DNA of 64,000 nucleotides from Sphingosinicella sp. CPCC 101087 (GTDB taxonomy: Bacteria > Pseudomonadota > Alphaproteobacteria > Sphingomonadales > Sphingomonadaceae): contig NZ_SBFF01000002.1 in NCBI RefSeq assembly GCF_004151485.1, positions 372,001-436,000 of the forward strand, read 5' to 3'. The notes beneath the pieces were generated by a model. The model was not told the origin of the DNA, searched no databases, and worked only from the letters and a program-made list of their open reading frames with translations. The number at the start of each line of letters is the position of its first letter. Position 1 is the stretch's first letter. Positions 3,675 through 28,954 of the stretch are shown here, in pieces. A program made the position numbers and the translations under genes.

Positions 3675-3678
3675 GAGC

Positions 3679-8105: not shown

Positions 8106-9068
8106 TCAGCCTGCGGGTACGCCCAGTTGCTGGGCGGCGGTGCGCAGCCGCTGCTGGGTCGCCGAATCGTCCTGAAAGGCGGAGAGGCCGGATTCCAGTG
8201 CCTCGCGGGCGGCACCAGGATCTTCCAGCACCATGCGTGACCGCATCAGGCGGATCCAGCCCTCGGCGTCGCGCGGGTTCTGGCGAAGGCGGCTGGCGAG
8301 CCGGTCGACCATGCCCTGCACCATCGCGTCCTGCTGGCTCGGCGGGATCGTGCGGGCTGCCTCCATCTGCTCGCGGCTCGGGCCGGGTATCGCCGCGGTT
8401 GCGGTCGAAGTCGCCGGCTGGGGCGGTGGGGGCAGGCGGCCTTCTATGTCGATGCTGTTGCGCTCGGCGATCGCAGTGACTGCCTGACGTACTTGCGGCT
8501 CCCATACGGCGTCCGCCGGCGCATCCCGCAACAGCGCGATCAGCGCGTCCACAGCGGCCTGGTGCTCGCCCTCGAGATCGTCGAGCGTGGCGAGATAATA
8601 GCGTGCTTGGGCGTTACCGGGCTCGAGCTCGAGCGCGCGCCGGAACAGCTGCTCGGCTTCGGGCGGCGGCGTGTCGCCGCCCTGAAGGAGCAGGGCCTCG
8701 CCGACATGGGCCGGGTAGTCGGCATTGTCCGGCTCCAGCTCCATCGCCCGCCGGAAGGCCTGCTCGGCCTCCGCGAAGCGTTCGCTGCCGCGATACGCCA
8801 TGCCGAGCAGGAACCAATTGCCGTGATTGTCAGGGTCGCGGCGAAGTTGCTCCTGCAGGCTGGCGACGACATCGTCGATCGTTCCGGGCGAGCCCGGATC
8901 GGCCGCGGCGGCATTCGCCTCGGGCTGGGCTTCGGCGGTGTCTCCCGAACGGAAGACGGCGATCCCGACCGCGGTGACGGCGAGCAGGCCGGCCGCGCCG
9001 AGTGCGAGCGTGGCGGACGAAAATCGCCGCCCTGGCGATGTGGTTTCAATCATTTGTCGGCGGATCAT
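8106..9068 (-). CDS. Membrane-anchored TPR protein, CcmI/NrfG-like
   Basis: About 320 aa with one N-terminal membrane segment (LALGAAGLLAVTAVGIAVF, about 20-40), followed by tetratricopeptide repeats (about 75-185: NHGNWFLLGMAY, ADYPAHVGEAL, AQARYYLATL) and a second helical block (about 250-315) with DAEGWIRLMRSRMVL. This layout matches the apocytochrome-binding periplasmic part of CcmI/NrfG, which present haem-attachment sites to the haem lyase. That fits a neighbourhood full of multihaem cytochromes. The start is uncertain: ATG at 9068 or 9053, neither with a clear Shine-Dalgarno. It is divergent from the ferredoxin fusion gene. The frame stays open far upstream, but that extension is antisense shadow. 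Confidence 0.72.
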   Translation of the reverse strand: MIRRQMIETTSPGRRFSSATLALGAAGLLAVTAVGIAVFRSGDTAEAQPEANAAAADPGSPGTIDDVVASLQEQLRRDPDNHGNWFLLGMAYRGSERFAEAEQAFRRAMELEPDNADYPAHVGEALLLQGGDTPPPEAEQLFRRALELEPGNAQARYYLATLDDLEGEHQAAVDALIALLRDAPADAVWEPQVRQAVTAIAERNSIDIEGRLPPPPQPATSTATAAIPGPSREQMEAARTIPPSQQDAMVQGMVDRLASRLRQNPRDAEGWIRLMRSRMVLEDPGAAREALESGLSAFQDDSATQQRLRTAAQQLGVPAG

Positions 9069-9200
9069 TACGGCAAAAATCACGACGTCAAGTCTGGCGT
9101 CCCCAAAAGAAGCTGCTAGGATGTCCGATGCCGGTGTGCGCCCGCGCCTTGGGGGTCGTGCGCCCTGCGCGCGGCGGGCGGATTTGGGGAGTGATCGGGA

Positions 9201-11639
9201 GTGGCGTCGGCCTTCAAGATTGCCGTGGTCGGTTCTGGGCCCGCCGGGCTCAGCGCCGCGGCGCGCGCCGCCCAGCTCGGCCTCAGTCACGTGCTGCTCG
9301 AGAAGACGGACCATCTGTCCGACACGATCTACAAATATCAGAAGGGCAAGCACGTCATGGCCACCCCGAGCCAGCTCGTGCTGCGCTCGGACATGGGCTT
9401 CGACGCCGGCAAGCGCGAAGTGATCCTCGGCACCTGGGACCGCCAGGCCGAAGAGCATAAGATCAACGTGAAGCTCAATGCCGAGGTGAAGCAGATCACC
9501 GGGCAGAAAGGCGACTTCACGCTCCTCCTGACCAGCGGCGAGGAGGTGAAGGCCGAATATGTGATCCTCGGCATCGGCACCCAGGGCAATCCGAACAAGA
9601 TGCGCTGCGAGGGCGGCGACCTTCCGCATATCCAGTACCAGCTCGACGATCCCGGAGAATATGTCGACGAGCATATCGCGGTGATCGGATCGGGCGATGC
9701 CGGCATCGAGAATGCGCTCGGCCTTGCTGCCGATCCCGAGCAGGGCAATACCGTCTACATCCTCAATCGCAGCGCCGAATTCGCGCGCGCCAAGACGGCC
9801 AATGTCGACCTGCTGATGGAGGCGAAGGCAAGCGGCCGCATAAACGTGATGTGCGAGACCTCGCCCGTGAAGGTGCTGCCCGGCTGGCTGCATGTCGAAA
9901 CGCGCGATGGCGAGCAGAAGATCAAATGCGATCGGATCATCGCCCGCATGGGATCGGCGCCGCCGCGCAAGTTCGTCGAGCAATGCGGGATCAAGTTCAC
10001 CAGCGATGATCGCGACGCCTATCCGCAGCTCTCGCCCGAGTTCGAGACGACCGTTCCCGGCATCTATGTGATCGGCGCGCTCGCCGGCTATCCGCTGATC
10101 AAGCATTGCATGAACCAGGGCTATGACGTCATCGAGTTCATCAACGGCAACCGGGAGCTGAAGCCGGCCGACGAGCCGATCCTGGAAGAGAAGTTCAGCG
10201 TCCTGCCGGGACAGCGCAGCGTCACGGAATGGCTGGCTTTCCTGCGGCGCCGCGTGACCATCCTCAATGATCTGTCGATGCTGCAGATGCGCGAGTTCAT
10301 GCTCGATTCCGAGCCGCGCGCCTACCGCGCCGGCGACGTGCTGTTCGAGCGCAACGATCCCGGCGCGTCGCTGTTCGCGATCGCCGACGGGTCGGTGCTG
10401 GTCGAAGTCGATCCGAACGACCCGTCCCGCACCGTCCCTATCCAGCAGGGATCGATCGTCGGCGAGGTCGGCCTCATTTCGGGCCGCAAGCGCGGCGCGA
10501 CGGTGCGGACGGCGGAAGGCGCCATCGTCATCGAAATACCGCGCAGTGCGGCGTTGAAGCTGATGGCGACCAACGCCGCGGCGAAGCGGGAGATCACCCG
10601 CATCTCGACGGAGCGGCAGCTGCTTCAGATGTTCGGTTCGGTCTCCAGCGACGACCTGGCCGAGGTGCTGGCTTCGGCCGAGATCATGGAGATCCGCGCC
10701 GGCCAGGCGATCATCAACGAAGGCGAGGACGGCTACGACATCTTCGTCATCCGCCAGGGATCGATGGTCGTGGAGAAGAATATCGGCGGCAAGCCGGTCT
10801 TCCTCTCTTATCTGCCGGCAGGATCCTATGTCGGCGAGATGGCGCTGATCGACGGCGGGCGGCGTACCGCGACGGTGCGGGCGGCAATCAAGTCCGAGGT
10901 GATCAAGCTCGACGGCGAAGCGTTCCGCAACTTGCTCAGGCGCGAGCCGGAGCTGTTGAGCAAGTTCAGGAAGGACATGTCGTCGCGCCAGGAGCTGACC
11001 AGCTTCGTCGAGGCGCGCAAGGACAGTTTCGGCGGCGTCGTCGACATGTATTCCTCCGTCGCCGGGTTCCTGGTGGAGAACGGAATCGGCGAAGCCACCG
11101 ACGTGTTGCTGATCGACGAGAAGCTTTGCATCGGCTGCGACAATTGCGAGCGTGCCTGCGCCGACGCCCATGAGGGCCTGTCGCGGCTCGATCGGGAGGC
11201 CGGCCGCACCTATGCCCACCTCCACGTGCCGACCAGCTGCCGCCATTGCGAGCATCCGCACTGCATGGCCGATTGCCCGCCCAATGCGCTGAACCGCGGG
11301 CCGGACGGCGAGGTCTATATCAACGACACCTGCATCGGCTGCGGCAATTGCCAGCGCAACTGCCCCTACGGCGTGATTCGCATGGCCAAGGTTCCGCCGA
11401 AGAAGCCCGGCCTGCTGCGCTGGCTGTTCTTCGGCAGCGGCCCGGGTCCGGGCGAAGCCGACAAGAAATGGACCGAGAAACGGGTCGGCGCGGAGACGCC
11501 CAAGAAGGCGATCAAGTGCGACATGTGCCTCGGCATAGACGGCGGTCCGGCCTGCGTCCGGGCCTGCCCTACCGGCGCGGCTATCCGCGTGTCGCCGGAA
11601 GAATTCCTGACAGTGGCGAGGATGGGTCAAACAGGCTAA
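9201..11639 (+). CDS. FAD/NAD(P) oxidoreductase - two cNMP-binding domains - 16-Cys ferredoxin fusion
   Basis: An 812-aa three-module protein. Residues 1-330 form a thioredoxin-reductase-like flavoprotein with two dinucleotide folds, GSGPAGLSAA near 11 and GSGDAGIENA near 164. Two cyclic-nucleotide-binding domains follow, about 360-455 and 470-590; both keep the phosphate-cassette Glu and Arg (GEVGLISGRKRGATV, GEMALIDGGRRTATV). The C-terminus (about 640-805) is a DmsB/NrfC-type ferredoxin with four Cys clusters (CIGCDNCERAC; CRHCEHPHCMADC; CIGCGNCQRNC; CDMC...CVRAC), enough for four [4Fe-4S] centres. It has no signal or membrane segment, so it is cytoplasmic. It starts with GTG after GGGAGTGATCGGGA. 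The likely role is a cNMP-gated electron input, from NAD(P)H or to quinone, into the membrane cytochrome encoded next (inference). A CpdA-like phosphodiesterase lies downstream. Confidence 0.88.
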   Translation: MASAFKIAVVGSGPAGLSAAARAAQLGLSHVLLEKTDHLSDTIYKYQKGKHVMATPSQLVLRSDMGFDAGKREVILGTWDRQAEEHKINVKLNAEVKQITGQKGDFTLLLTSGEEVKAEYVILGIGTQGNPNKMRCEGGDLPHIQYQLDDPGEYVDEHIAVIGSGDAGIENALGLAADPEQGNTVYILNRSAEFARAKTANVDLLMEAKASGRINVMCETSPVKVLPGWLHVETRDGEQKIKCDRIIARMGSAPPRKFVEQCGIKFTSDDRDAYPQLSPEFETTVPGIYVIGALAGYPLIKHCMNQGYDVIEFINGNRELKPADEPILEEKFSVLPGQRSVTEWLAFLRRRVTILNDLSMLQMREFMLDSEPRAYRAGDVLFERNDPGASLFAIADGSVLVEVDPNDPSRTVPIQQGSIVGEVGLISGRKRGATVRTAEGAIVIEIPRSAALKLMATNAAAKREITRISTERQLLQMFGSVSSDDLAEVLASAEIMEIRAGQAIINEGEDGYDIFVIRQGSMVVEKNIGGKPVFLSYLPAGSYVGEMALIDGGRRTATVRAAIKSEVIKLDGEAFRNLLRREPELLSKFRKDMSSRQELTSFVEARKDSFGGVVDMYSSVAGFLVENGIGEATDVLLIDEKLCIGCDNCERACADAHEGLSRLDREAGRTYAHLHVPTSCRHCEHPHCMADCPPNALNRGPDGEVYINDTCIGCGNCQRNCPYGVIRMAKVPPKKPGLLRWLFFGSGPGPGEADKKWTEKRVGAETPKKAIKCDMCLGIDGGPACVRACPTGAAIRVSPEEFLTVARMGQTG

Positions 11640-11691
11640 GCTTCGTTTCGCAGTCGAAACACGTTCCAGAGCCAAAGGGGGGCCGAGCGGG

Positions 11692-12567
11692 GTGGCGAGC
11701 AGGGGGGTTGGACGGTCGGTCGTGGGTGAGGGAGTGGCTCATGAGAGCTTCCTCCGCTACCGGCGTTTCTATTGGCTGAAGGTCGCGCTCGGCATTTTCC
11801 TGCTGACGTGGCTTGTCTATCTCGTCGTCGACGTTCAGCCGCGCCATAATGGCGGCAGCTGGCTCGGCTACACGCTGGGTACCCTCGGTGCCGCTCTGAT
11901 CGTGTGGCTGGCGATGCTCGGCATCCGCAAGCGCGCCATCACCCGCGGCCGATGGTCGCTGAAGGCCTGGACCTCGGCGCACGTCTATCTCGGTCTCGCC
12001 TTGATCGCGATCGGCTCGTTCCACACGGGTTTTCAGTTCGGCTGGAACGTCCATACCGCCGCCTATGTGCTGATGATGCTGGTCATCCTGTCCGGAATTT
12101 ACGGCGTCTCGGTCTACAGCGTGCTGCCGCAGGGGCTCAGCGATGCTCGGTCCGAAATGACCGGGCCGCAGATGATCGATGCGGTCAACAGCCTCGACAA
12201 GCAGATCCAGGCCGCCGCCCAGCCGCTGTCGGACGCCGACAGCGAGGTGGTCCTGGGATCGCTCGGCGAGGACCCGTTCGGCGGCGGGGTGTGGCGTCGG
12301 CTGACCGGAAGCTATCCGCGTTGCGGAAACCGTCGGGCGCTGCAGGTGATGCGCGGCCGGCTCACCGAGGTGAGCGGCAGGCAGGCGGAAGCGATCGAGC
12401 AGGTTGTCGGTCTGCTCGAGCGCAAGGCGGCGGCACTGCAGCGGGTGCGGGGCTACGTCCAGCGGCGGGCCATGCTGGAGATCTGGCTGTTCGTGCACAT
12501 CCCGCTGACGTTCGTGCTCATCGTCGCGCTCCTCGCGCATATCATCAGCGTCTTCTTCTACTGGTAG
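11692..12567 (+). CDS. b-type-cytochrome-like membrane protein
   Basis: A 291-aa integral membrane protein with about five helices: WLKVALGIFLLTWLVYLVV, LGTLGAALIVWLAML, HVYLGLALIAIGSFH, AAYVLMMLVILSGIYGV and the C-terminal FVHIPLTFVLIVALLAHII. Histidines sit in or at the ends of helices 3, 4 and 5, as expected for axial ligands of b haems. A roughly 110-aa soluble loop separates helices 4 and 5. I do not recognise a named family. It starts with GTG 52 bp after the ferredoxin fusion and ends 13 bp before the FHA-decaheme gene, so it probably passes electrons between the two across the inner membrane (inference). Confidence 0.75.
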   Translation: MASRGVGRSVVGEGVAHESFLRYRRFYWLKVALGIFLLTWLVYLVVDVQPRHNGGSWLGYTLGTLGAALIVWLAMLGIRKRAITRGRWSLKAWTSAHVYLGLALIAIGSFHTGFQFGWNVHTAAYVLMMLVILSGIYGVSVYSVLPQGLSDARSEMTGPQMIDAVNSLDKQIQAAAQPLSDADSEVVLGSLGEDPFGGGVWRRLTGSYPRCGNRRALQVMRGRLTEVSGRQAEAIEQVVGLLERKAAALQRVRGYVQRRAMLEIWLFVHIPLTFVLIVALLAHIISVFFYW

Positions 12568-12580
12568 GGGGGTAGGGGGC

Positions 12581-14452
12581 ATGGCGTTCGTTCTTCGGAA
12601 CATCAGCTATACTGCCGAAGGTCGGCAGATCATCCGCAGCTCGCGGGTGCCGGACGACCTTCTCAAGATCGGGCGCGGTCCCGAAAGCGACGTTGTTCTC
12701 AACGATCTCGCCGTAGCGCTCCACCACGCGACGCTGGAGCAGGTCTCCTCGTCGCGCCTCGGTGTCTCGGCCGAGGCCGGGCTCACCGTCGACCTCGACG
12801 GCAGCGTCACCCAGTTCGGCCAGCTCGATCTCGCCACCGGCGGCACGATCAAGATCGGGCCGTTCCGCCTGCGCGTCCTGCCGCAGGAAATGGGTTCGGA
12901 AGACATCGCGATCGATGTGGAGCGGCCGCAGGACGACGAGGCCGAGGAAGAGAAATTCGACACGCGCCGCTTCGCCCTCGCCTCGGTCATGCCGGGCAAG
13001 AGGCCGATCGCCTGGGCCGGCATGGTCCTCGTGCTCGGCCTGTTCCTGGCCTGGCCCATCTGGGCCTATTACAGCCAGGAACGGGGTCAGCCGCAGATCG
13101 CCCAGGGCTTCCACGGCGATCGTTTGTGGCTCAGCGGAAGCCTTTCGGAAGGCCATGCCGCGCTCGCCAATAATTGCACCGCCTGCCACGTCGAGGCCTT
13201 CGAATCGGTGCGGGATGAATCCTGCACGGCCTGCCACACCGCAATCCACGACCATGCCGATCCGCGCCGCCTCGCCCAGGCGACTCCGGACCTGCCCTTC
13301 TTCCGGCGCGCACAGATGCGCATCCAGGAGGCGTTCGGGCAGACGCCGGGGCGCTGCGTCGACTGCCATACCGAGCATGAGGGGCCGCAGGAAATACCGG
13401 CGACGCCGCAGCAATTCTGCTCCGACTGCCACGCCGATCTGGACGCGCGCCTGCCCGATACCGGCCTTGGCGATGCGAGCGATTTCGAGCAGCTTCACCC
13501 CGAATTCCAGCCATTGGTGCTGGTGCGCTGGGACGGCGACCAGCCGCGGCTGCAGCGCGTGTCGCTCGATCGGCGGCCGCGCGAGGCCAGCAACCTCAAA
13601 TTCCCGCACGCCTTGCATCTCGACCAGACCGGCGGGGTCGCCCAGATGGCGCGACGCCTCGCGCCGAGCCATGGCTTCGGGCAGCAGCTCGAGTGCGCCG
13701 ACTGCCACGTGCCGACGCCGGACGGCGTTCGCTTCCAGCCGCCCAGCATGGAGGGCGATTGCGGCATGTGCCACAGCCTCGCCTTCGAACTGGTCGACGG
13801 GACCGTCCGCACGCTTCGCCATGGTGAACCGCAGCAGGTCGTTGCCGACATCCGCGCCTTCTATCGCACCGGGTTGCGGCCGCGGCCGGCCTCCCTCGGC
13901 AGCGTCGAGCGCAGCCGGCCCGGCGACGTGAATCAGCTTCGAACGACCGCCCAGGCTTCGCGGGCGCAAGCCGGGACGAGCCTGCGCGCCGAGCAGATGG
14001 TGCGCGCCGTCTTCTCCGAAGGCGGCGCCTGCTTCGACTGCCACGAGGTACAGGCACCGGCATCTGGCTCGGGCGCGTTCGGAATCCGGCCGGTCGCCTT
14101 CCCGACCCGCTACATGCTGCACGGCTGGTTCGACCATAAGGCTCACCAGGTGGTGCAGCGTCCGGGGCAGCGTCAGCTTGAAGGTTCGGCCGCCTGCCTC
14201 AGCTGCCATCGCGCCGATGCGTCGTCCGATTCCGGCGACCTGCTGTTGCCGAACATGGCAAGCTGTCGCGACTGCCATGGTGGCGAAACGAGCAGCCTCC
14301 CGGTCGAATCGACCTGCGCCATGTGCCACGATTACCATATGGACGAAGGCGTCCCGGCTCAGCTGCTTCGGCAGCAGGTGCGGGGCCGTCGCTGGACCAC
14401 CACGGTGATTCCGGTACAGTCGCAACAGGCGGCTGGGGGACGAAGCCGATAG
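12581..14452 (+). CDS. FHA domain - membrane anchor - decaheme cytochrome c
   Basis: A 623-aa protein. An N-terminal FHA-like domain (about 20-105; KIGRGPESDVVLND, then HHATLE) is followed by an acidic linker, one membrane segment (WAGMVLVLGLFLAWPIWAYY, about 142-163) and a long C-terminal part with ten CXXCH haem sites (CTACH twice, CVDCH, CSDCH, CADCH, CGMCH, CFDCH, CLSCH, CRDCH, CAMCH). With a single anchor, the FHA part should face the cytoplasm and the haems the periplasm. FHA domains bind phospho-threonine, so a Ser/Thr kinase could recruit or gate this cytochrome. The ATG has GGGGGGTAGGGGGC upstream, 13 bp after the membrane cytochrome gene; the three plus-strand genes form an operon. 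I know of no characterised homologue with this architecture. Confidence 0.88.
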   Translation: MAFVLRNISYTAEGRQIIRSSRVPDDLLKIGRGPESDVVLNDLAVALHHATLEQVSSSRLGVSAEAGLTVDLDGSVTQFGQLDLATGGTIKIGPFRLRVLPQEMGSEDIAIDVERPQDDEAEEEKFDTRRFALASVMPGKRPIAWAGMVLVLGLFLAWPIWAYYSQERGQPQIAQGFHGDRLWLSGSLSEGHAALANNCTACHVEAFESVRDESCTACHTAIHDHADPRRLAQATPDLPFFRRAQMRIQEAFGQTPGRCVDCHTEHEGPQEIPATPQQFCSDCHADLDARLPDTGLGDASDFEQLHPEFQPLVLVRWDGDQPRLQRVSLDRRPREASNLKFPHALHLDQTGGVAQMARRLAPSHGFGQQLECADCHVPTPDGVRFQPPSMEGDCGMCHSLAFELVDGTVRTLRHGEPQQVVADIRAFYRTGLRPRPASLGSVERSRPGDVNQLRTTAQASRAQAGTSLRAEQMVRAVFSEGGACFDCHEVQAPASGSGAFGIRPVAFPTRYMLHGWFDHKAHQVVQRPGQRQLEGSAACLSCHRADASSDSGDLLLPNMASCRDCHGGETSSLPVESTCAMCHDYHMDEGVPAQLLRQQVRGRRWTTTVIPVQSQQAAGGRSR

Positions 14453-14547
14453 CGGGAGACGATAAACGGATTTGAAGCGTCGAAGCGTCACGCTCGCCAC
14501 GGCCAGGCGAGCGTTGCGCCCGGTCGAATCAGGTCAGGAACAAACGC

Positions 14548-15405
14548 ATGCTCATTGCGCAGATCACCGACATCCACCTGGGCTTCGACCGCTCCAACCC
14601 GGACGAGTTCAACCGCCAGCGCCTCGACGCGACCCTCGCGGCCTTGAGGGGTTTGTCGACGCGGCCGGACCTGCTGCTGGTCACCGGCGACATCGTCAAT
14701 GACGGCGACGATATCGAATCCTATCACCGTTACCGCGACGCGATGGCGGGCATGCCGATCCCGTCATTCCCGCTGATGGGCAATCACGACAGCCGTGAAC
14801 CCTTTCTCGAGCTGTTTCCCGAAACTCCGAGCGTGGATGGTTTCATCCAATATGCGATCGACGACCACTCCCTGCGGATACTGGTCCTCGATACGCTCGA
14901 AGTCGGGCGCCACGGCGGCGGCTTTTGCGAAACGCGCGCGTCCTGGCTGCGCGAGCGGCTCGACGAGGCGCCGGATCGGCCGACCCTGATCGCGCTCCAT
15001 CATCCGCCGATCGCGACCGGAATCGACTGGCTGACCGAGGATCCAGATGCCGACTGGGTGGAGCGGCTTCGCGGCATCGTCGAGGGGCGCGGCAACATCG
15101 TCGCCATGGTCGCCGGGCATGTCCATCGCCCGATCGTGACCAGTTGGGCTGGAACGCCCCTGGTCGTTTGCTCGTCCACGGCGCCGCAGCTCGCGCTCGA
15201 TTTGAGCCCGATCGATCCCGAGACGCCGGACGACCGGGCGATGATCGTCGCCGAGCCGCCTGGCTATGCGCTTCATCTGTGGGACGGGCGACACCTCACG
15301 ACCCACTTCGACACCGCCCAGGATCATGAGGTCCTCGCCCGCTACACGCCCAACCTCCAGCCCTTGGTGAGGATGCTGAGCCAGGAGAAGCAGCAGCGCC
15401 ACTGA
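14548..15405 (+). CDS. cpdA: Calcineurin-like phosphoesterase, CpdA-like (class III cNMP phosphodiesterase)
   Basis: A 285-aa metallophosphoesterase close in length to E. coli CpdA (275 aa), which hydrolyses cAMP. The two-metal motifs are complete: DIHLG (residues 8-12), GDIVNDGDD near 52, GNHDS near 78, LHHPP near 151 and GHVHRP near 190. It is cytosolic, with no signal peptide. It lies 95 bp after the FHA-decaheme gene on the same strand, and the only cNMP-binding protein in the window is two genes upstream, so it may reset the signal sensed by that protein (inference). Other phosphodiester substrates cannot be excluded. Confidence 0.78.
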   Translation: MLIAQITDIHLGFDRSNPDEFNRQRLDATLAALRGLSTRPDLLLVTGDIVNDGDDIESYHRYRDAMAGMPIPSFPLMGNHDSREPFLELFPETPSVDGFIQYAIDDHSLRILVLDTLEVGRHGGGFCETRASWLRERLDEAPDRPTLIALHHPPIATGIDWLTEDPDADWVERLRGIVEGRGNIVAMVAGHVHRPIVTSWAGTPLVVCSSTAPQLALDLSPIDPETPDDRAMIVAEPPGYALHLWDGRHLTTHFDTAQDHEVLARYTPNLQPLVRMLSQEKQQRH

Positions 15406-15427
15406 ACGAAGGGCGCCGCAGAATCGA

Positions 15428-18692: not shown

Positions 18693-19330
18693 TCCGCGTC
18701 TGCCTGGCCGACGACCAGGCCCTGATCCGCAGCGGATTGCGCGCGCTGCTGGGCTTGTTCGAAGGCATCGAAGTCGTCGCCGAGGCGTCGGACGGCGCCG
18801 AGACGGTCGACGCCGTGCTCTCCACCACGCCGGACGTGCTGCTGCTCGACGTGCGGATGCCCAGGCTCAATGGCGTGCAGGTGATAAACGCGCTGGCAGC
18901 GCGCGACGCCCTGCCGCCGACTCTGCTCCTCACGACGTTCGAAGACGATGCAGCGCTCGTCGGCGGCGTGCGCGCAGGGGCCCGCGGCTTTCTTCTCAAA
19001 GGCGTGTCGGCCGAAACGCTCGTCGAGGGAATCCGCACGGTCGCTTCAGGCGGGAGGTTTCTCTACGCGCCGCTCAGCTCGGGCGCGATCCAACCCATGG
19101 CCGACGCATCCTGGCGCGACGACGCCTTCGAAATGCCGGAGGCGCTGACCGCCCGCGAACGCGACGTGCTGAAGCTACTGACCAGCGGCATCTCCAATTC
19201 CCAGATCGCCGCGGCCCTCAATCTCGGCGAAGGCACGGTCAGGAACCACGTTTCGAACATATTCTCGAAGCTCGGAGTCGCCGATCGCACCAAGGCTGTC
19301 CTGGTTGCGCTCCACAAACAGCTCGTGTGA
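18689..19330 (+). CDS. NarL/LuxR-type response regulator
   Basis: A 213-aa DNA-binding regulator. The receiver domain (1-120) has acidic residues DD at 8-9, the phospho-acceptor Asp in LLLDVRMPRLNG near 54, LLTTF near 82 and Lys in FLLKG near 104. A C-terminal LuxR helix-turn-helix (about 148-210) shows LTARERDVLKLL, NSQIAAALNLGEGTVRNHV and KLGVADRTKAV. The start overlaps the kinase stop (ATGA), indicating coupled translation. Likely targets are the flanking receptor and the multihaem operon that converges on it. Confidence 0.93.
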   Translation: MIRVCLADDQALIRSGLRALLGLFEGIEVVAEASDGAETVDAVLSTTPDVLLLDVRMPRLNGVQVINALAARDALPPTLLLTTFEDDAALVGGVRAGARGFLLKGVSAETLVEGIRTVASGGRFLYAPLSSGAIQPMADASWRDDAFEMPEALTARERDVLKLLTSGISNSQIAAALNLGEGTVRNHVSNIFSKLGVADRTKAVLVALHKQLV

Positions 19331-22400: not shown

Positions 22401-23620
22401 TGCCGGATCGGATGGCCGCGCTCGCGCACGGCTGCGTGGTTCGAATCGGCCGGGGCCTCGTGCGCCGCCTCTCCTTCGGAATCGTGCTGGACCAGGTTGC
22501 GAATCGCGGGATCGACCGTCGCCGTCTGCCCGTCGCGGCCATATTGGCTGTAGGTCAGGCTGTGCCGCGGCTCGCGGTCGTTGGCATAGACGACGTGGCA
22601 GCCGGCGCAGCCGCTATGACGATAGTCGCCGGGCTGGTCGTTCGTCCCCATGAACCACATGAACGGGTCGTTGAGGCGAGTCTTGTGGATGTTGAGGATC
22701 GGGATCGACACGCGAAGCCCCGTGCCCGGGCCGCGATTCGACTGCCTGAGGTCCGGCCGGCCGGGCTCCTCGAGCCGCTGGATCGATCCGGTCGGATTGG
22801 GCAGGCCGACCTCGGCGAACTGCGTATTGATGTTGCGACCGCCCCGCTCGAACACCCGGAAGATGTCGCCCGGCGGCACGACGTGCCAGGTCGGCAGTGG
22901 GTACATTTCCGCAAGCACGCCGCGGGCGCGCTGCTGCTCGGTGATCTGGCCGCCGATGGGCGACTGGATCCGGGCGGGCTGGCCGTCGCGCGTATAGGCT
23001 TCGCCGAACATGTAGTTCTTGAAAGGCAGGATGCCGTTATTGTAGGCGCCGCCGCCCCACAGCATCGCCCCGGTGGCCATGATCGATCTTTCGGCCGCTT
23101 CGATGATCTCCATGTGGCAGGCGCCGCAGCTGTCGCGTACGGCGCGGTAGTCGGACGGGTTGACGAAGCGGACGAATTCCGGCGCCTCGCGGTTGAGCAG
23201 GGTATAGGTCCGGCTCGGATTGGCGCTCGAGGGCCAGTGCCAGCTGTCGGGGTAGATCGGCAGCACGTGCGCCTGGTCGCGCGCGACGACATAGGCCGGA
23301 TCGTCTGCGCCATGCGCGCCGGCAGGCGCTGTGATGGTCGGATTGCCGCCATGGCAATCGGTGCAGCCGAGCACGACCGCCGGCGATCGGTGCATCGTGT
23401 GGGCGTCGCTGTCCGTATGGCAGGATTGGCACCCGGCGCTCTTCGCTTCCGCCTCCGCCCAGTCCTGCGTGCGCGGCGCTGGAGCCGCTCGGACCAGGCT
23501 GTAGTCGCGAACATAGGCTTTTTCCTTTTCGGCCGCGCCCAGGCTGGACGCGCCGATCAGGGCGGAGACCGCGATCGCAGCCCCGATAAGGCCCTTTCTG
23601 CCAAGTTCGCTGAAACGCAT
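19469..23620 (-). CDS. Exported decaheme cytochrome c with C-terminal LVIVD repeats
   Basis: A 1383-aa protein. A signal peptide (MRFSELGRKGLIGAAIAVSA, cut about 34) is followed by ten CXXCH sites spread over about residues 65-860 (CQSCH, CTDCH, CGACH, CAGCH, CMTCH, CADCH, CKDCH, CFTCH, CAGCH, CTDCH). The C-terminal 400 residues carry propeller-like LVIVD repeats (YAYITADIGLVVVNLDDP, YLWVTDAEGLKLFDVTD, YAYVAAKHQGLAIIDVTN, FAYVADGRNGVKVL). There is no lipobox, so it is periplasmic or carried to the surface by another route. The start was put at ATG 23618-23620 because it opens a clean signal peptide and follows AACGGGGGCG; a TTG five codons earlier is possible. It is last in a four-gene operon and begins 11 bp after the beta-barrel gene, suggesting a porin-cytochrome partnership (inference). 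Confidence 0.9.
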   Translation of the reverse strand: MRFSELGRKGLIGAAIAVSALIGASSLGAAEKEKAYVRDYSLVRAAPAPRTQDWAEAEAKSAGCQSCHTDSDAHTMHRSPAVVLGCTDCHGGNPTITAPAGAHGADDPAYVVARDQAHVLPIYPDSWHWPSSANPSRTYTLLNREAPEFVRFVNPSDYRAVRDSCGACHMEIIEAAERSIMATGAMLWGGGAYNNGILPFKNYMFGEAYTRDGQPARIQSPIGGQITEQQRARGVLAEMYPLPTWHVVPPGDIFRVFERGGRNINTQFAEVGLPNPTGSIQRLEEPGRPDLRQSNRGPGTGLRVSIPILNIHKTRLNDPFMWFMGTNDQPGDYRHSGCAGCHVVYANDREPRHSLTYSQYGRDGQTATVDPAIRNLVQHDSEGEAAHEAPADSNHAAVRERGHPIRHVFTRAIPTSQCMTCHMHQPNIFLNSYLGYTMWDYESDADLMWPGPENRLPARNAEEERQFRQQRYPDQEEVHDVLDRNPEGAAPRGLWADVEFLREVYDRVNPLARHTQFADYHGHGWNFRAIFRRDREGNMVDADGNIIPPGDPDTFRREGEGLFAPVGTNPGKSVHMMDIHAERGLQCADCHFSRDSHGNGFLYGEVANAIEIGCKDCHGTAREYANLRTSNVAAPPRGTNLELIRNEDGRRRFEWVEREGRRVLIQRSIVDPNLEWEVSQVRDSADSALPPCDARGDEATQGPCFNIRSARAKLMSRSGAETGKFLFGEGVSDNDLAHPDDEMACFTCHLSWTTSCAGCHLPIEANNRYVSHHYEGGQTRNFATYNPQVARDEMFQLGRHQTTKGNIIAPVRSTSALILSSTNVNRERIYIQQPPIAASGFSSQAFAPHFPHTVRRTETKTCTDCHLSASNDNNAIMAQLLLHGTNFVNFVGLHAFSGMESGFQATRVTEWEEPQAVIGSYLHRYAYPDYWRMHVDRNGRELIEWTRGQTFDENFSGETRALEQFANIVQGTRGAVRCLQHRGEYMFVAEGDGGFMAYDIASLGNKGFSERIVTGPVSPLGHDTRVGSTNATCMALPTNQPIRPDRNVSMAETVRPQPDGSTISLLEENQEQRFHPIYDYAVVTDSAEGLFLVNVNTLSDGEPRNNFLRRARLASGATTWNENGVLNGARHIILAGHYAYITADIGLVVVNLDDPLQPRLTATLPLTDARASALQFRYLWVTDAEGLKLFDVTDMSAPRPVPEATVPLANAQRIYLARTYAYVAAKHQGLAIIDVTNPERPGTPTFVTFDGRMNDVEDVIVASTNASLFAYVADGRNGVKVLQLTSPESQPNFYGFSPRPVPELIAWARTPSPALSLSKGLDRDRGVDETGGQIAVFGRLGSRPFNREEMERLFLNSRRMPYYVSDTGTMQEWVPIRQAAVQR

Positions 23621-23631
23621 CGCCCCCGTTC

Positions 23632-25629
23632 TCAATACGTCAGGATGGTGTTGAGCAGGACGGAATAATAGCGGTCGTCCTGCGGCTGATCGTCGAACAG
23701 ATCGCGAAAGCCGGTGCCGGGCTGAAGCACCGCACCCGACAGGCGGAAGACGACGTTCTGGATCGCCGTCGGCCGGTAAATGAGGGCGGCGCTGATGTCC
23801 CAGCCGATGTCGCGGCGGATCGTCCCCTGCATCCTCAGCGCCTCGAGTGATTCGGTGCGGTGGAACCAGAGGTGATTGACGTTGCCCGACACGCGCAGCT
23901 GCTGGGAAATGTCCAGGTCGGCACCGACGCCGAGCAGCATCGTCCCTGGATTGACGAAGTTGGACTGGCCCTGCTCCTTGGAGGAGCGGAGCGTGTTGAG
24001 GATGCCGTTGCGGCCGTTGAGCGAAACCGCGCGGCCGCCGCCGGCGAACGGGATCGTCTGGCGAACCCAGTAGCTGGTGTCGGCGCCGGCGAAGATCGGA
24101 TTTTCGAAGATCGCGTCGAAGCCGTGCTGGACGTCGTCATAGGGATCGCCGTCGCCGCTGGCGAACAGACCTGCGCCGCGAACGCGGATCCAATTGAAAT
24201 CGACGGACGGCTCGATCGCGGCGAAATAGCCCTCGATGCGGGCATTCTCGCCGGTGAAGATGTTCCTCCGGTCCGACCCGAACACGGCATAGGTCGAGGC
24301 GGACAGGTTAAGCCGGCCGATATGGCCGTCGGCATTATAGCCGACGTAGAATGCGTCGTAATTGCGCGTCAGGAGATTGCCGATCAGTGCCGGGCGCACC
24401 GGGAAGCCGTTGTCGTCGACCTCGATCTCGCCGCGTTCGCGATTGATGTTCCAGGTCAGGCTGAGTTCGCTCGTCACGTTGATGACGGGAAAATCCTGGC
24501 GATAGACGTTCGCATGCAGGACCCAGTCGTCCCGCGGCCGCTGAAACAGGTTGTTGAGGCCGGAATTGGTGTCCTTCTCCAGCCGCCAGATCGCGGCCAG
24601 GTTGAACTGGAAGCGGTTGTTGTCGCGATTGCCGAACAGCCGGAACCCGAGCTGCTGATCCTGGAACAGGAAACCCCGGAAATCGAGGTTGAACGGCTGT
24701 ATGCCCAACCGAAAGCTGTAGAAATCATAGCGATAGGAGGTGTCGCCCAGATGGTAGTCGAGGAACGCCTCCTGCACGCCGAGCGCATAGTCGAACCGAT
24801 TGCTGCCCACCGTCGGGCGTACGTCGAGCACACGCCGCTCCGGCACGTCGACATAATTGGCCTGGGCGGCGAACGTCACGCGCCATTCGATGTCGGGCGG
24901 CTTGTAGGCCGTCGATCCCTTGATCAGCGCGGCCCCGAAGATGAAGGTCTGGACCGCCGCTATGCTGTTGTTCCGGCCGAAGACGTCGTTGCTGTCCGGA
25001 TTTTGCGTCGACTGGACGCCGACCGGGATCGGGAAGCTGCGCGGCTCGAACACGGTATCGGAAACGGCACTGGCGACGAAGAACCAGTCATTGCTTTGCA
25101 GACCGAGCCAGCGCGGTGTGGCGCACCGCCGCTGTCCGGCCTGCCGCCGCCGCTCCTGCTCCTCCTCGGTCGGAATGCACAGCGGCCGATCGCCCTTGAG
25201 CGTGTTCTGGTTGTACGGGTCCCACCAGCGTTCGGTGACGATGCCGAGACTCTCGATAAGCCGCCAGCGGTCGGGAATCGGAATGTTGAAGCCCGGAAAG
25301 GCCTCCGGCGGCGGTGAGCGGATCGCGCCGGGATTCACTTGCTCGACCGCGTCGGGAAGGTCGCGCTCGATGTCGGGCCGCCGTCGACCTTCGATCAGTT
25401 CTTCATCCAGCGGCACGGGCGGGGGCTCGCCTCGCTCGTTGGGCGGCAGTGGCTGCGCCTCCGACATCGAGGCCGCCCCTTCCGTGGGAGCGACTTCGTC
25501 GTCCTGGGAGACGAGGGCGAGCGACGAGGCGGCAGCCGGGTGCGGCGCTGACCGATCGGGCGGAGACGCGGCAAGGGCGGCCGGATCCACCGACGTCAGC
25601 AGTGAAACGAAGGCGGCCGCGAGCGTCAT
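23632..25629 (-). CDS. Outer-membrane beta-barrel protein of the multihaem operon
   Basis: A 665-aa exported protein. It has a signal peptide (MTLAAAFVSLLTSVDPAALA), a roughly 120-residue acidic Pro-rich N-terminal region, and then a long run of amphipathic strands with aromatic girdles (YRYDFYSFRLGIQPFNLDF, FQFNLAAIWRLEK) ending in YYSVLLNTILTY, a terminal aromatic typical of Bam substrates. The length is close to MtrB/PioB-type conduit porins, but I see no diagnostic motif, so the family is unassigned. Its ATG (25627-25629) overlaps the upstream stop as ATGA, indicating coupled translation. Its place between a cytochrome lipoprotein operon and a decaheme gene suggests it forms the outer-membrane sheath (inference). 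Confidence 0.8.
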   Translation of the reverse strand: MTLAAAFVSLLTSVDPAALAASPPDRSAPHPAAASSLALVSQDDEVAPTEGAASMSEAQPLPPNERGEPPPVPLDEELIEGRRRPDIERDLPDAVEQVNPGAIRSPPPEAFPGFNIPIPDRWRLIESLGIVTERWWDPYNQNTLKGDRPLCIPTEEEQERRRQAGQRRCATPRWLGLQSNDWFFVASAVSDTVFEPRSFPIPVGVQSTQNPDSNDVFGRNNSIAAVQTFIFGAALIKGSTAYKPPDIEWRVTFAAQANYVDVPERRVLDVRPTVGSNRFDYALGVQEAFLDYHLGDTSYRYDFYSFRLGIQPFNLDFRGFLFQDQQLGFRLFGNRDNNRFQFNLAAIWRLEKDTNSGLNNLFQRPRDDWVLHANVYRQDFPVINVTSELSLTWNINRERGEIEVDDNGFPVRPALIGNLLTRNYDAFYVGYNADGHIGRLNLSASTYAVFGSDRRNIFTGENARIEGYFAAIEPSVDFNWIRVRGAGLFASGDGDPYDDVQHGFDAIFENPIFAGADTSYWVRQTIPFAGGGRAVSLNGRNGILNTLRSSKEQGQSNFVNPGTMLLGVGADLDISQQLRVSGNVNHLWFHRTESLEALRMQGTIRRDIGWDISAALIYRPTAIQNVVFRLSGAVLQPGTGFRDLFDDQPQDDRYYSVLLNTILTY

Positions 25630-27581
25630 TTGCCCTGGCAGACATTCTGCTCGTTGGTGCCGACGAACGGATTGAACGGACACAGCACCCAGCGCAGCCG
25701 GGTCGTCGTGCTGCCGGTCGGGATCTGGATCCGATCGGAACGGTTCGCCGGATCGGCATTGCCGATCGAACCGCCAAGGCGGATCCCAGCATTGTGAAGG
25801 CCCAGAAAGGCGATCATGTCGCTCTGGTCGTTGCCGTCGCCGGACGAGGCGATCGCGCCGACGAGCTGGTTGCCGCGATAGATCGGCACGCCGCCGGCGA
25901 ACAGGGTGATCCCGTTATTGATCCGGTTGCGGCCCGGCCTGACCTGCGGGGAGCGCGTGCAGCTCCGCGGTACATCGGTGGCATTGGCGCCGAGCACGAA
26001 GCCGACGTGCCCCAGGATGTCGTCGGTGATCAGCCGCGACTGCAGTCCGGTCGAGAAGATGTTGAACTGCTCGATCGGGCCGGACAGCGGTCCGGGCGGG
26101 CGGCCGAGCTGCCCGTCGGGAAACCAGGGCCGGGCGATATTGCCGATGCCGCGCAGCGAGAATGCCGTGTTGCCGGTGAGCGCCGAGGGATCGCCAAGGA
26201 AGGTGCGTACCGCGGCGACATAATCGGAGACGCCCGACGTAGGATTGGCCAGCAGGTCCGGAGCCGCGAAACGGCTGGAGAAGAAGACCGTGGTCCGCGC
26301 CTTCTGAGGAACCGCGTCGATCGCATCGACCAATGCGTCGGGACCGCGCACCAGGCCGAGAATCTCGCCATTGGTATCGACCACGACCATGGTGTTCTGA
26401 GCACGATTGTCGAGCGGATAGCGCAGCTGCGCGCGAGCCGCGCGCTGGACCTTGAAGGCCTCCTCGAGCAGCGCGCGCACCTCCGAGGCGGACAGCGCGC
26501 CGGCCCCGTCCGTGCCGGCGCGGGCGGGATAACGATTGCTCCCGGCGCCGTCGCTGACCACCCAGACTTCCGGCACGTCATACTCGCCGGCGGCAGCCGG
26601 GCGGATTCCGGACTCCTCGCTTCCGTAGACCGTCCCGGGCACGATCACCGCATCATTGTATCCGCGGATGGCGACGAGGTTGCCGACGGTGCCGTTGATC
26701 GACGCGAAGGCGGGGGCGCTGCCAGGACTGCTTCGGAAATCGGCCGGCGTGGCATCGGAATAGCGCAGCAGGGTGCCGTCCACCGCTATCCGGTTGGCGC
26801 GGATCTGCGGCGCCGGTTCGAAGCCGGCGGTGGCGGCGAGGGCGATGACCTCCTCGACGTTGCCGTCCTTGTCCAGAAACTCGGTATCGAATCCGTAGAC
26901 GCCATCACCGATGACCGCGACGGATCCGACCACCGCGCCGTTCTTGTACAGCGGGAAGGCGCCGGGATCGGCGCCGACGCCGAGTGGACCTCGGTGGCTT
27001 CCGGCCCGGTTCGGAAAGCGGCTTGCGACGTCAGAGCAGGGAAGCTGGCTGAACTGAACGCTGAACAGTGGGCCGCTTTCCAGGCCTCGGGTGCCGCGCG
27101 ATGGCGGGAAAGTCTCTTGAACGATGTCGTTCGCGGTGCGGCTGGAGAAGGCCGCCCCCATGGACGAGAAATAAGAGGAAGTGAGCGCCTTGGAGATGCC
27201 TCCGGCAAGCGCCGCCGGCGCCGGCAGGTCGAGGTCCTGCAGATCGGTGCTCCGGCCGTTCGGAGCGGGCGGCGTTCGCAGCGTCAGGTCGGTCCCGTTC
27301 ATGACGAAGGCGGCGAGGACGTTGCCGACCCGGTCGATGACGATGAATCCGGAGGGCTGACCCTGGGCCTGCGCTTCCGCCACCCCCTGCGCGATGATTC
27401 GTTCGACGTCGGAGACGGTGAGGTTCACCAGTGCCGGCGTCTGGAACAACGCCTGTGGCGCCGGCGGCGGCGGCGGGGGAGGGGGCGGCACGGGATTCTC
27501 GTTGCCGCCGCCTCCCCCGCCGCCGCCGCAGGAGGCGACGAGAAGGGCGGCCATGGCAATCAACGATACGCTACGCCTCAC
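25626..27581 (-). CDS. Lipoprotein with two HbpS/GlcG (DUF336-like) domains
   Basis: A 651-aa protein. The lipobox LLVASC is followed by a Gly run and a proline run (residues about 18-42) as a flexible tether. Two copies of a GlcG/HbpS-like fold follow, about 48-300 and 350-615; both show the family's opening helix-strand (VERIIAQGVAEAQAQGQPSG / VRALLEEAFKVQRAARAQL), the VVDxxGxxLxxxR strand (FIVIDRVGNVLAAF; MVVVDTNGEILGLVRGPDA) and a GGVPIYRGNQLVGAIASSGD C-terminal motif in copy 2. HbpS-type proteins bind haem or iron and some sense redox stress; GlcG is of unclear role. GTG start with GGAGG at ideal spacing, overlapping the upstream cytochrome stop (GTGA). Likely anchored at the outer or inner membrane as a haem-binding partner (inference). 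Confidence 0.85.
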   Translation of the reverse strand: MRRSVSLIAMAALLVASCGGGGGGGGNENPVPPPPPPPPPAPQALFQTPALVNLTVSDVERIIAQGVAEAQAQGQPSGFIVIDRVGNVLAAFVMNGTDLTLRTPPAPNGRSTDLQDLDLPAPAALAGGISKALTSSYFSSMGAAFSSRTANDIVQETFPPSRGTRGLESGPLFSVQFSQLPCSDVASRFPNRAGSHRGPLGVGADPGAFPLYKNGAVVGSVAVIGDGVYGFDTEFLDKDGNVEEVIALAATAGFEPAPQIRANRIAVDGTLLRYSDATPADFRSSPGSAPAFASINGTVGNLVAIRGYNDAVIVPGTVYGSEESGIRPAAAGEYDVPEVWVVSDGAGSNRYPARAGTDGAGALSASEVRALLEEAFKVQRAARAQLRYPLDNRAQNTMVVVDTNGEILGLVRGPDALVDAIDAVPQKARTTVFFSSRFAAPDLLANPTSGVSDYVAAVRTFLGDPSALTGNTAFSLRGIGNIARPWFPDGQLGRPPGPLSGPIEQFNIFSTGLQSRLITDDILGHVGFVLGANATDVPRSCTRSPQVRPGRNRINNGITLFAGGVPIYRGNQLVGAIASSGDGNDQSDMIAFLGLHNAGIRLGGSIGNADPANRSDRIQIPTGSTTTRLRWVLCPFNPFVGTNEQNVCQGK

Positions 27582-28954
27582 CTGAGCCTCCGAATGGCGG
27601 CGGCGGCCCGTCCGAGCGCAGCGCGGAATTCACCGGGGCTGTAGGCGTTGGGATCTCGGACGGCCCGATACGCAGAATTGATGTCCACCCGGATGTCGTT
27701 GGCCGAGCTCTCGGAGACCTGGCGCTCGTCGACCAGGGCGGAGAGCAGGGTATCGGTCGCCATCACCGCCTGCACGCTTCCGGCATAATCGGTGAAGCGC
27801 GGGCTGATCGCGCCGCTGGTGATCGAATCGATGATCGCGAATACCTGGCCGCGGCCCACCCGGGCGCCGCTGAAAGCGGTGGCGAGGGCGCGAACCGTTT
27901 CCTGCAACGTCCCGGCCGCTCGTACCGCGGCGGCGCGGTCGCGCGCGAGCGCCTGGTGGAAGGCGCGGCTGTCGCGCTCGAACCGCTGCGACAGGTCCGG
28001 GGCGACGACGCGAGCCGCGGCGGCGAGCATGATCATGTTCTCGTCATTGTAAGGCGGCATGCCGGACGGGATCGGTCGGCTCGGATTGGCCACGGCAGTC
28101 GGCCGGAAATTCGGCTCGTCCGAGATGCGGCGGTGGCAACTGTGGCAGTCGAAGAAGTAGAATTCGGGGAAGATGCCGTCGGTGCCGCGGCCGGCCGTCG
28201 TGAACAGGCCGAGCGACCGGTCGAGCGCCATCGCCTGCCCGACCGCCCACATCTGGACGGAATCTATAGCGCCCTTTCGATTGTGATAGTCCTCATCTTC
28301 CTGGTGATGCTGCTGCAGTGTCGTGAACAGGTCGAGCTCGAACGAGATGCGGGGATGGCCTGCCGCCATGATGCGGTGGGTGACGAACTGTCCCTCGTCC
28401 GCGCTGCCGAAATGGCAGTCGAGGCAGACTGCGGCGCGGGCGCGCGGATTTTCAAGCGGCACCAGGCCCCGCGACACGTTGTTGGCGTGCGTGCCGCCCA
28501 CCGAATAGTGGCTCGACAGCCAGCCGGAGGCCGGGCCGTGACAGGATTCGCAGCCGACGCCGTCGGAAAGCTGGAAACGCGCACCGCGCGCCGCGGCGGG
28601 CGTCGCATGGCAGCCGAGGCACATTTCGGCGCTGCTCGCCTCGCCAATGCCCAGGCGCTGGGCAATGACCTTGCTCCGGGGATCGCTCAGCACGGCATAG
28701 GCCCGGCTGTGCGCGCCGGCGGCGCTCGACGGGTCCTGCCACAGCATGATTTCGTCCTGGCGGACTACGGGTCCGTCGCCCTCGCTGCGGCCGTGGCAGG
28801 TCGTCCCGCCACAGCTCGCGACGCCGACGAACGTGGCGCCGCCGGCCTGCGCGAGGGCCGGCGCCTCGGCCGGCCGGACGAGCAGCAGGAATCCGGCCAG
28901 CGCGGCGAACGCCAGCGCGCCGAAGCCCACGAAGAATTTACGGCTGCCCCCCAT
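27578..28954 (-). CDS. Multihaem cytochrome c (cytochrome c554-like, one CX4CH plus four CXXCH)
   Basis: A 458-aa protein. It has an N-terminal hydrophobic segment (FFVGFGALAFAALAGFLLLV, signal or anchor), then a CX4CH site (CGGTTCH, Cys48) and four CXXCH sites: CLGCH, CESCH, CLDCH and CHSCH. The arrangement GVASCGGTTCHG... CLGCH...CESCHGPA resembles cytochrome c554-family proteins that move electrons in the periplasm. The last 180 residues are haem-free and helical. The chosen ATG (28952-28954) has GGAGGGCAG directly upstream. It is the first gene of a four-gene operon; its stop overlaps the next GTG (GTGA). It is divergent from the ThDP enzyme gene across 267 bp. Confidence 0.87.
   Translation of the reverse strand: MGGSRKFFVGFGALAFAALAGFLLLVRPAEAPALAQAGGATFVGVASCGGTTCHGRSEGDGPVVRQDEIMLWQDPSSAAGAHSRAYAVLSDPRSKVIAQRLGIGEASSAEMCLGCHATPAAARGARFQLSDGVGCESCHGPASGWLSSHYSVGGTHANNVSRGLVPLENPRARAAVCLDCHFGSADEGQFVTHRIMAAGHPRISFELDLFTTLQQHHQEDEDYHNRKGAIDSVQMWAVGQAMALDRSLGLFTTAGRGTDGIFPEFYFFDCHSCHRRISDEPNFRPTAVANPSRPIPSGMPPYNDENMIMLAAAARVVAPDLSQRFERDSRAFHQALARDRAAAVRAAGTLQETVRALATAFSGARVGRGQVFAIIDSITSGAISPRFTDYAGSVQAVMATDTLLSALVDERQVSESSANDIRVDINSAYRAVRDPNAYSPGEFRAALGRAAAAIRRLR

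Follow-up and report, generated by a model that had tools for sequence, protein, structure and literature searches.

The question raised by this DNA is what purpose is served by a group of genes for multihaem cytochromes, a flavoprotein and membrane proteins that lie between positions 8106 and 28954 of a 64 kb window of Sphingosinicella sp. CPCC 101087 (contig NZ_SBFF01000002.1, positions 372,001 to 436,000). The window is the whole stretch that was analysed (64,000 nucleotides), positions are counted within it, and the genome from which it comes comprises 4.70 Mb in 44 contigs. The island consists of two units. Unit A encodes a flavo-ferredoxin, a five-helix membrane protein and a decahaem protein anchored behind an FHA-like domain (FHA-decahaem protein); unit B encodes a pentahaem protein, a lipoprotein with two HbpS-type domains, a beta-barrel and a decahaem protein with an LVIVD beta-propeller (decahaem/LVIVD protein). 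We put the probability at roughly one half that these components export electrons from NAD(P)H, under the control of a cyclic nucleotide, to a decahaem protein located at the outer membrane. This proposal draws on direct observations: the presence of the genes, their co-inheritance, their motifs and one gene fusion.

Haem attachment sites were counted with a DNA pattern for CXXCH, which gave 25 matches in the window against 1.92 expected; none of 100 shuffled sequences reached 25. Coding frames were picked by third-position GC content, and 24 of the matches fall within three genes (10, 10 and 4). The remaining match (29098-29112, minus strand), upstream of the pentahaem gene, looks like a chance occurrence. 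Together with one CX4CH site, the motif counts per gene bear out the 25 sites on three proteins that had been listed in an earlier, sequence-only reading of the window.

The entry point of the proposed chain would be the flavo-ferredoxin (9201..11639, plus strand). The fusion of a FAD domain with a 16-Cys ferredoxin recognised in the sequence-only reading was confirmed by Pfam, which assigned a FAD/NAD(P)-binding reductase domain (PF13738, PF07992) and Fer4 families and, beyond what that reading had reported, two domains of the family that binds cyclic nucleotide monophosphates (cNMP; PF00027 twice, 111.2 bits); the same domains were found in four distant relatives. Full homologues are understood here and below as those remaining after exclusion of open reading frames (ORFs) cut by locus ends. 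The ferredoxin part contains exactly 16 Cys in 82 of 87 full homologues and 17-19 in the other five, and its 16 Cys are invariant in an alignment of 22 homologues; it is expected to carry four [4Fe-4S] clusters. The phosphate-binding cassette of cNMP domains is marked by a G-E and R motif. The corresponding residues E422/R431 and E546/R555 are invariant in the 22 aligned sequences, and both GE..R motifs occur in 86 of the 87 full homologues (87 and 82 with a stricter pattern); judged from these residues, the predicted domains fit nucleotide-binding families. No CXXC motif was found in the flavin part of any of the 87 proteins, so the disulphide of thioredoxin reductases is absent. A second flavo-ferredoxin copy was noted in genome G196 (locus L201:9485-11959), with no recognised membrane protein or decahaem gene adjoining it.

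The membrane protein (11692..12567, plus strand, start uncertain) displays five hydropathy peaks, two WX3HX13H motifs (93-111 and 265-283) and the sequence SGIYG at position 134. Its description as a His-containing membrane protein was therefore apt. Both WX3HX13H motifs are present in 88 of 89 homologues and SGXXG in 75 of 89, and PF01292 was matched with 26.6 bits, under its cut-off of 30.1. In the main text of He et al. 2017 (PMC5566968), the inner-membrane protein of the PCC3 and PCC4 clusters is described as having five transmembrane segments, WX3HX13H on the third and fifth, SGXXG on the fourth, and two proposed b haems. The protein encoded in the window has this signature and is, from its motifs, a probable di-haem cytochrome b of PCC3/PCC4 type. 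To call the island undescribed was thus too strong. The same text places a gene for a PF13247 Fe-S protein upstream of the membrane-protein gene in PCC4 subgroup II, an order that recurs in the window, where PF13247 was matched by the flavo-ferredoxin (34.7 bits, cut-off 26.2). The genes for the flavo-ferredoxin and the membrane protein are fused into a single ORF of about 1,120 residues in G344 and G228, which supports electron transfer between the two proteins. Directly upstream of the fused gene, a similar single-CXXCH protein is encoded at L202:2348-2803 and L203:9299-9751; both of these genomes are without unit B, and the small protein is perhaps an electron partner.

The FHA-decahaem protein (12581..14452, plus strand) combines an FHA-like domain, one transmembrane helix that follows it and ten CXXCH motifs, the first two features being additions to the sequence-only reading; it may be read as an inner-membrane-anchored periplasmic wire. 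Ten CXXCH motifs were counted in 86 of 88 full homologues and nine in two. In an alignment of 20 homologues all ten C..CH sites are invariant, one of them being lengthened to CX4CH in G344 and G228. Profile searches gave the multihaem cytochrome 3ov0 (E 5e-17), known as a "nanowire" type, c7 cytochromes, and FHA proteins such as GarA. Control by a kinase was considered and not adopted, since the FHA-like domain is without the Ser and Arg of the phosphothreonine-binding pattern.

The pentahaem protein of unit B (27578..28954, minus strand, ATG at 28954) resembles cytochrome c554 (PF13435, 36.4 bits; PDB entry 1bvb, E 7.9e-8). Its four CXXCH motifs and one CX4CH motif (CGGTTCH) are shared by 85 of 86 full homologues, the exception being a 304-residue ORF in L073; a lipobox pattern was also matched by 31 of the 86. 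The adjoining lipoprotein (25626..27581, minus strand) had been called haem-binding-type on sequence grounds, and this agrees with its two HbpS/GlcG-type stretches (PF03928, 66.9 bits, cut-off 25). The lipobox pattern occurs in 82 of 91 full homologues. Among its PDB matches, EfgA (6bws, E 9e-10), a formaldehyde sensor, came first, followed by weaker ones (NahX, putative extracellular haem-binding protein).

An outer-membrane beta-barrel coupled to a decahaem protein had also been proposed. The barrel itself (23632..25683, minus strand) is borne out by structure prediction: the AlphaFold2 model, computed from 37 sequences (mean predicted local distance difference test score, pLDDT, 66.0; predicted template modelling score 0.66; residues 1-142 below 50), contains 18 strands, each of them close to ten residues long or longer. 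Its role as an electron conduit is not. The best Foldseek match was AlgE (7acg, E 2.1e-14, template modelling score 0.64 on the target), with Occ/OprD-type channels and further porins ranking next; no MtrB chain was among the best 50 of 781 matches, and no Pfam or NCBIfam family was matched at E 0.01. As predicted, the fold is no less suited to a substrate channel than to an electron conduit.

The decahaem/LVIVD protein (19469..23620, minus strand, ATG at 23620; PF08309) is the most conserved member of unit B and probably its terminal enzyme. Its mean column identity is 59% and its ten CXXCH motifs are invariant in 22 aligned sequences; all ten are found in 105 of 106 full homologues, the exception being a 306-residue ORF. 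The median best-segment identity to the window is 67% for this protein (105 loci) versus 41% for the FHA-decahaem protein (83 loci), a contrast from which the latter may be read as a wire and the former as an enzyme.

Co-inheritance of the genes was examined in a sample of 196 genomes drawn evenly from the order and in a sample of 398 genomes from the phylum. In the order sample, limits of E 1e-10 were applied to the decahaem/LVIVD and FHA-decahaem probes and of 1e-60 to the flavo-ferredoxin profile, weaker relatives being left uncounted; in the phylum sample, they were 1e-15 (decahaem/LVIVD), 1e-8 (barrel, probed in this sample only) and 1e-60 (flavo-ferredoxin). The three order-level probes marked the identical 39 of 196 genomes (17 of 63 genera), and at these limits no genome had one of the three without the others. 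Six of the 39 holders have both decahaem genes on one contig with more than 300 kb between them, and ten have them on different contigs. As the units are separated in these 16 genomes, linkage alone does not explain their shared occurrence. Both decahaem genes of G159 are at contig ends, and an assembly break is possible there; because of shared ancestry, the number of genomes counts for less than it would otherwise. Two genomes of the window's own genus are without all three genes, so the presence of the system is patchy. In the phylum sample, the decahaem/LVIVD gene was found in 11 genomes, the barrel in 12 (those 11 and G345) and the flavo-ferredoxin in 15 (those 12 and G196, G228 and G344). 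A repeated search for the decahaem/LVIVD gene at E 0.001 gave no match in any of these four genomes; for G345 the absence is not proven, because the contig ends about 330 bases past the barrel. Occurrence is nested: unit A can stand alone, and every genome in which unit B was found also had unit A. The redox genes of the island are thus inherited together, as the sequence-only reading had supposed for the whole island. The histidine kinase, the response regulator and the TonB-like gene that lie between the units are outside the system.

Gene order was compared by tblastn in 38 regions from 28 genomes. Apart from cuts at region ends, unit A always reads flavo-ferredoxin, membrane protein, FHA-decahaem protein, and unit B pentahaem protein, HbpS lipoprotein, barrel, decahaem/LVIVD protein. 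All seven core genes stand in one row in G545, a genome with low GC content from the same phylum, without a label that would assign it to the same class. Genes for a CpdA-like protein and for a TPR protein usually accompany unit A, an exception being G105, in which the CpdA gene is beside the decahaem/LVIVD gene. Counts were also taken over 80 named loci, many of which are cut by contig ends and some of which are redundant (L088, L092 and L111 with contigs of G193, G074 and G186): barrel 76, HbpS lipoprotein 68 and pentahaem protein 64 for unit B; FHA-decahaem protein 55, membrane protein 53 and flavo-ferredoxin 52 for unit A; CpdA 55, TPR 49, a thiamine pyrophosphate (TPP) enzyme 20 and an aldehyde dehydrogenase 21.

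What we infer from these components is the direction of the electrons, the order of the cytochromes, the nucleotide control and the acceptor, and with them any electron transfer at the cell surface. In the proposed scheme, NAD(P)H would reduce the FAD of the cytoplasmic flavo-ferredoxin, from which electrons would pass through four [4Fe-4S] clusters to the two b haems of the five-helix inner-membrane protein and on to the ten c haems of the anchored periplasmic FHA-decahaem wire. The pentahaem c554-like protein would relay them to the decahaem/LVIVD protein, which, together with the 18-strand barrel and the double-HbpS lipoprotein, would reduce an acceptor at the outer membrane. Flow would be controlled by the occupancy of the cNMP domains, set by the CpdA-like phosphodiesterase and, in many relatives, a nearby cyclase. 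Such a scheme would work like an NAD(P)H oxidase/ferric reductase (NOX/FRE) coupled to a multihaem chain. With cNMP domains placed between the flavin and ferredoxin parts, and a phosphodiesterase and often a cyclase encoded nearby, a signal could switch export without transcription. That the island is a transmembrane conduit of respiratory type, and the first in which a cyclic nucleotide acts directly on the entry enzyme as a gate, is a tentative suggestion with the odds somewhat against it.

The link to cyclic nucleotides was followed through the neighbouring genes. A CpdA/SpdA-like protein, by its family a putative class III cyclic-nucleotide phosphodiesterase (PF00149), is encoded directly after unit A (14548..15405, plus strand). 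In G444, a gene for a protein with CHASE2 and class III cyclase (PF00211) domains lies between the CpdA gene and the decahaem/LVIVD gene that it adjoins, the CpdA gene itself being placed between this cyclase and an aldehyde dehydrogenase gene. Class III cyclases were then counted with PF00211 in 16 chosen holder genomes (36 cyclases; cluster limits set by hand). One was found within 5 kb of the cluster in 10 of the 16 genomes, compared with 0.29 expected at random; 13 had one within 20 kb. Selection of the genomes was not blind, as G077, G177, G143, G105 and G444 had a prior cyclase hit; among the other 11 genomes, five had a cyclase within 5 kb. Relatives of the G444 cyclase were found in 19 of 60 long loci (58 named ones plus L194 and L195), the combination of CHASE2 and PF00211 being confirmed by Pfam for L194 and L082 only. 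Their placement varies, some lying upstream of the pentahaem gene and others past the TPR gene, in inverted orientation or within the locus. On plasmid pMSHV of Sphingobium herbicidovorans (L225:1-9662), the pentahaem gene is preceded, in this order, by a CHASE2 gene, a small ORF, a ShlB/FhaC transporter gene and an ORF of about 2,090 residues.

Several observations weigh against the proposed scheme. The CpdA-like protein is under both equivalog cut-offs (138.6 of 400 bits for SpdA, 88.3 of 225 bits for CpdA), and the comparison of cyclases with random placement ignores shared ancestry. Three of the 16 genomes, including that of the window, have no class III cyclase on the contig of the cluster; in the window's own genome a single such enzyme was found, encoded on a different contig. 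No cyclase relative is present in 41 of the 60 long loci. Because the ShlB/FhaC transporter gene and the giant ORF intervene, the CHASE2 cyclase of pMSHV may serve the neighbouring secretion system. The second cNMP motif is missing from the flavo-ferredoxin of L153, and G196, G228 and G344 have unit A but neither the decahaem/LVIVD gene nor the barrel gene. The decahaem part of the LVIVD protein was modelled by AlphaFold2 with a pLDDT of 42, which leaves the enzyme role without structural support. It is solely from the fold that NAD(P)H use and an outward direction are read, and an inward flow to quinone was proposed for PCC4 in the main text of He et al. (PMC5566968).

Comparison with known systems shows the general kind of the cluster to be known. 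Decahaem cytochromes and an outer-membrane barrel are also joined in one cluster in MtrCAB, PioAB and MtoAB, in which electrons pass a CymA-type cytochrome in place of the flavo-ferredoxin found here. Their barrels have 26 to 28 strands, whereas 18 are predicted here; the figure of 28 is the one given in the text of PMC5566968. No Mtr, Pio or Nrf model passed its cut-off, in agreement with the sequence-only reading, which had held the composition to be unlike these systems: the DmsE-family decahaem model reached 17.6 bits (cut-off 192.2) on the pentahaem protein and the NrfA equivalog 15 bits (cut-off 595), and for the latter comparison the PDB profile search gave only 3ubr at E 0.25. The class III cytochrome family PF02085 had no match in the window's genome at E 0.001.

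The closest likeness in gene arrangement is to PCC4. According to the main text of He et al. (PMC5566968), PCC4 likewise has a porin adjoining multihaem genes and, in Oceanospirillum beijerinckii, a joined gene for the Fe-S and membrane proteins, as in G228 and G344 here. The PCC4 cytochromes described there carry 4, 5 and 10 haems, compared with 10, 10 and 4 + 1 in the window, and because these numbers differ the cluster is provisionally placed beside PCC4 and not in it. The terms LVIVD, DUF336, lipoprotein, FHA and cyclic are absent from that main text, although cNMP domains may figure in the supplementary drawings; searching the main text likewise gave no mention of terminal cytochromes like those here, of an 18-strand barrel of AlgE/Occ type or of features linked to cyclic nucleotides. 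PCC3 is given with medians of 21 and 34 haems for its periplasmic and extracellular cytochromes and porins of up to 42 strands, compared with at most 10 haem sites per protein and 18 predicted strands here; as the outer cytochromes of PCC3 in Gallionellaceae are listed with 10-35 haems in the available text of PMC10734462, the haem count does not separate the two sharply. That text also describes the Uet pathway (undecaheme cluster, Tenderiales and some Gallionella), likewise a porin-cytochrome conduit with small accessory cytochromes; its cytochromes are of the 11-12-haem and tetrahaem kinds, and the present cluster is set apart from it by description only. The Ext cluster of Geobacter (ExtHIJKLMNOPQS), as presented in the excerpted text of PMC5877670, also encodes a porin-like outer-membrane protein, multihaem cytochromes and a membrane cytochrome b; it has a Rieske protein, a rhodanese and the 12-haem ExtM where the window has a flavo-ferredoxin and a decahaem protein. 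In NOX/FRE enzymes, too, an NAD(P)H-type flavoprotein feeds a membrane protein with two HX13H pairs, a parallel drawn for the membrane protein in the main text of PMC5566968. The system described here differs in its separate polypeptides (fused only in G228 and G344), intervening ferredoxin clusters, two cNMP domains and multihaem acceptors, and the Pfam scan of the unit A proteins gave no match to a NOX/FRE family.

Three other explanations were weighed. The barrel might admit a small anion or organic acid that is reduced in the periplasm by the decahaem/LVIVD protein, so that no electrons cross the outer membrane. Such a periplasmic reductase with its own channel would suit the resemblance of the barrel to AlgE/Occ channels, the high conservation of the decahaem/LVIVD protein, which would be in keeping with a specific active site, and the lack of a lipobox pattern in 102 of its 106 full homologues. 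It would also suit the match of this protein to the ExtM equivalog and the porin-like ExtI, linked to selenite and tellurite reduction in Geobacter in the excerpted text of PMC5877670, where such a role is one proposal. The ExtM match is, however, partial and far under its cut-off (72.1 bits, cut-off 800), the channel is read from a predicted barrel, and a possibly surface-exposed lipoprotein is encoded between the barrel and pentahaem genes. We regard this explanation as somewhat unlikely.

A conduit running inwards, in which a donor outside the cell, for instance Fe(II) or Mn(II), is oxidised and its electrons travel by way of the barrel complex and the haem b protein to quinone or, driven by the proton-motive force, to NAD(P)+, appears improbable. 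It would be consistent with the PCC3/PCC4 signature of the inner-membrane protein, for which flow from outside to quinone is the published PCC4 model, and with the presence of an Mn(II)-oxidising Erythrobacter among the PCC3 holders named in the main text of PMC5566968, several Erythrobacter genomes carrying the decahaem/LVIVD gene. The NAD(P)H-type flavoprotein adjoining the membrane protein speaks against it, since by the established redox potentials it could be reached from Fe(II) or Mn(II) only uphill. Still less probable is the inheritance side by side of two systems, with unit A feeding any periplasmic reductase and unit B serving as a device for haem or metal acquisition or detoxification that shares its electrons. 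The HbpS-type domains of the lipoprotein, the three genomes with unit A alone and the 16 of 39 in which the units are far apart or on different contigs are in its favour, but unit B was never found on its own: all 12 phylum genomes with the barrel and all 39 order genomes with the decahaem/LVIVD gene had unit A as well. Controlled export through both units is the preferred explanation.

Sphingomonads often carry the system (39 of the 196 genomes sampled from the order). The closest named decahaem/LVIVD match among those listed is from Sphingosinicella sp. LHD-64 (80% identity in the best segment), and the species collection holds at least 593 related stretches, one gene being able to give two. 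Many of its hosts are known as aerobes, and a multihaem export chain is unexpected in such organisms. Direct second-messenger control of an electron-transfer chain would, to our knowledge, be a new regulatory principle, if true. Beyond the related PCC3 and PCC4 clusters, no description of the cluster was found among the open-access papers listed, an absence that is not proof of novelty. A link to anoxygenic photosynthesis is weak: 10 of the 39 holders have reaction-centre genes, as do 14 of the 157 genomes without the system (Fisher P 0.011 with no correction for ancestry).

A near-complete decahaem/LVIVD gene was also found in 13 of 72,556 plasmid records (12 Sphingobium, one Sphingopyxis). 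Matches of any extent occur in 15 records, of which 12 are classed as non-mobilizable and three as conjugative; pMSHV and pMC4 are typed as conjugative. All nine genes (seven core genes, CpdA-like and TPR) are present on pMSHV, as judged by annotation and order and not by alignment, the annotations reading cytochrome c family, heme-binding, hypothetical, multiheme, metallophosphoesterase, cytochrome c3, hypothetical, cyclic nucleotide-binding and TPR. The stretch on pMC4 comprises unit B and the TPR gene.

Among the accessory genes, that of the TPR protein (8106..9053, minus strand, start codon at 9053 or 9068) is the divergent neighbour of unit A in 49 of 52 named loci with a flavo-ferredoxin. 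The protein has a CcmI/NrfG-like domain (PF23914, 79.9 bits, cut-off 42) and may help in cytochrome c assembly. Its earlier designation as a CcmI-like factor stands in so far as the cut-off is exceeded; the label is loose because the model is promiscuous, matching 10 of 14 control genomes and exceeding its cut-off in seven. Between the units lie a gene for a protein resembling TonB-siderophore receptors (15428-17371, minus strand; 79.5 bits, cut-off 223.5), a histidine kinase gene (17529-18692, plus strand) and a response regulator gene (18689-19330, plus strand). The two-component pair noted earlier is thus present and is not conserved with the cluster: none of the three genes occurs in the 80 named loci. 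Control by this pair was dropped, neither gene having been found in those loci or in the 38 regions, apart from one weak response-regulator match (33%) 17 kb away in L057.

Beyond unit B, genes for an acetolactate-synthase-type TPP enzyme (29219-30946, plus strand; NF006187, 889.9 bits, cut-off 509) and an aldehyde dehydrogenase (31130-32593, plus strand), both regarded as accessory neighbours, were found. Both recur in G444, a genome of another family (L194:1817-4918), with 82-84% identity, above the redox genes there. Just upstream of the island (2583-7079), a PP2C phosphatase, a Ser/Thr kinase and an FHA protein of type VI secretion system type are encoded; the last was not found near the cluster in the 38 related regions. 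At the edges of the neighbourhood, a curlin-repeat protein (16-1563; PF07012, 85.7 bits) and a beta-lactamase-family protein (33328-34515; PF13354, 162 bits) were observed.

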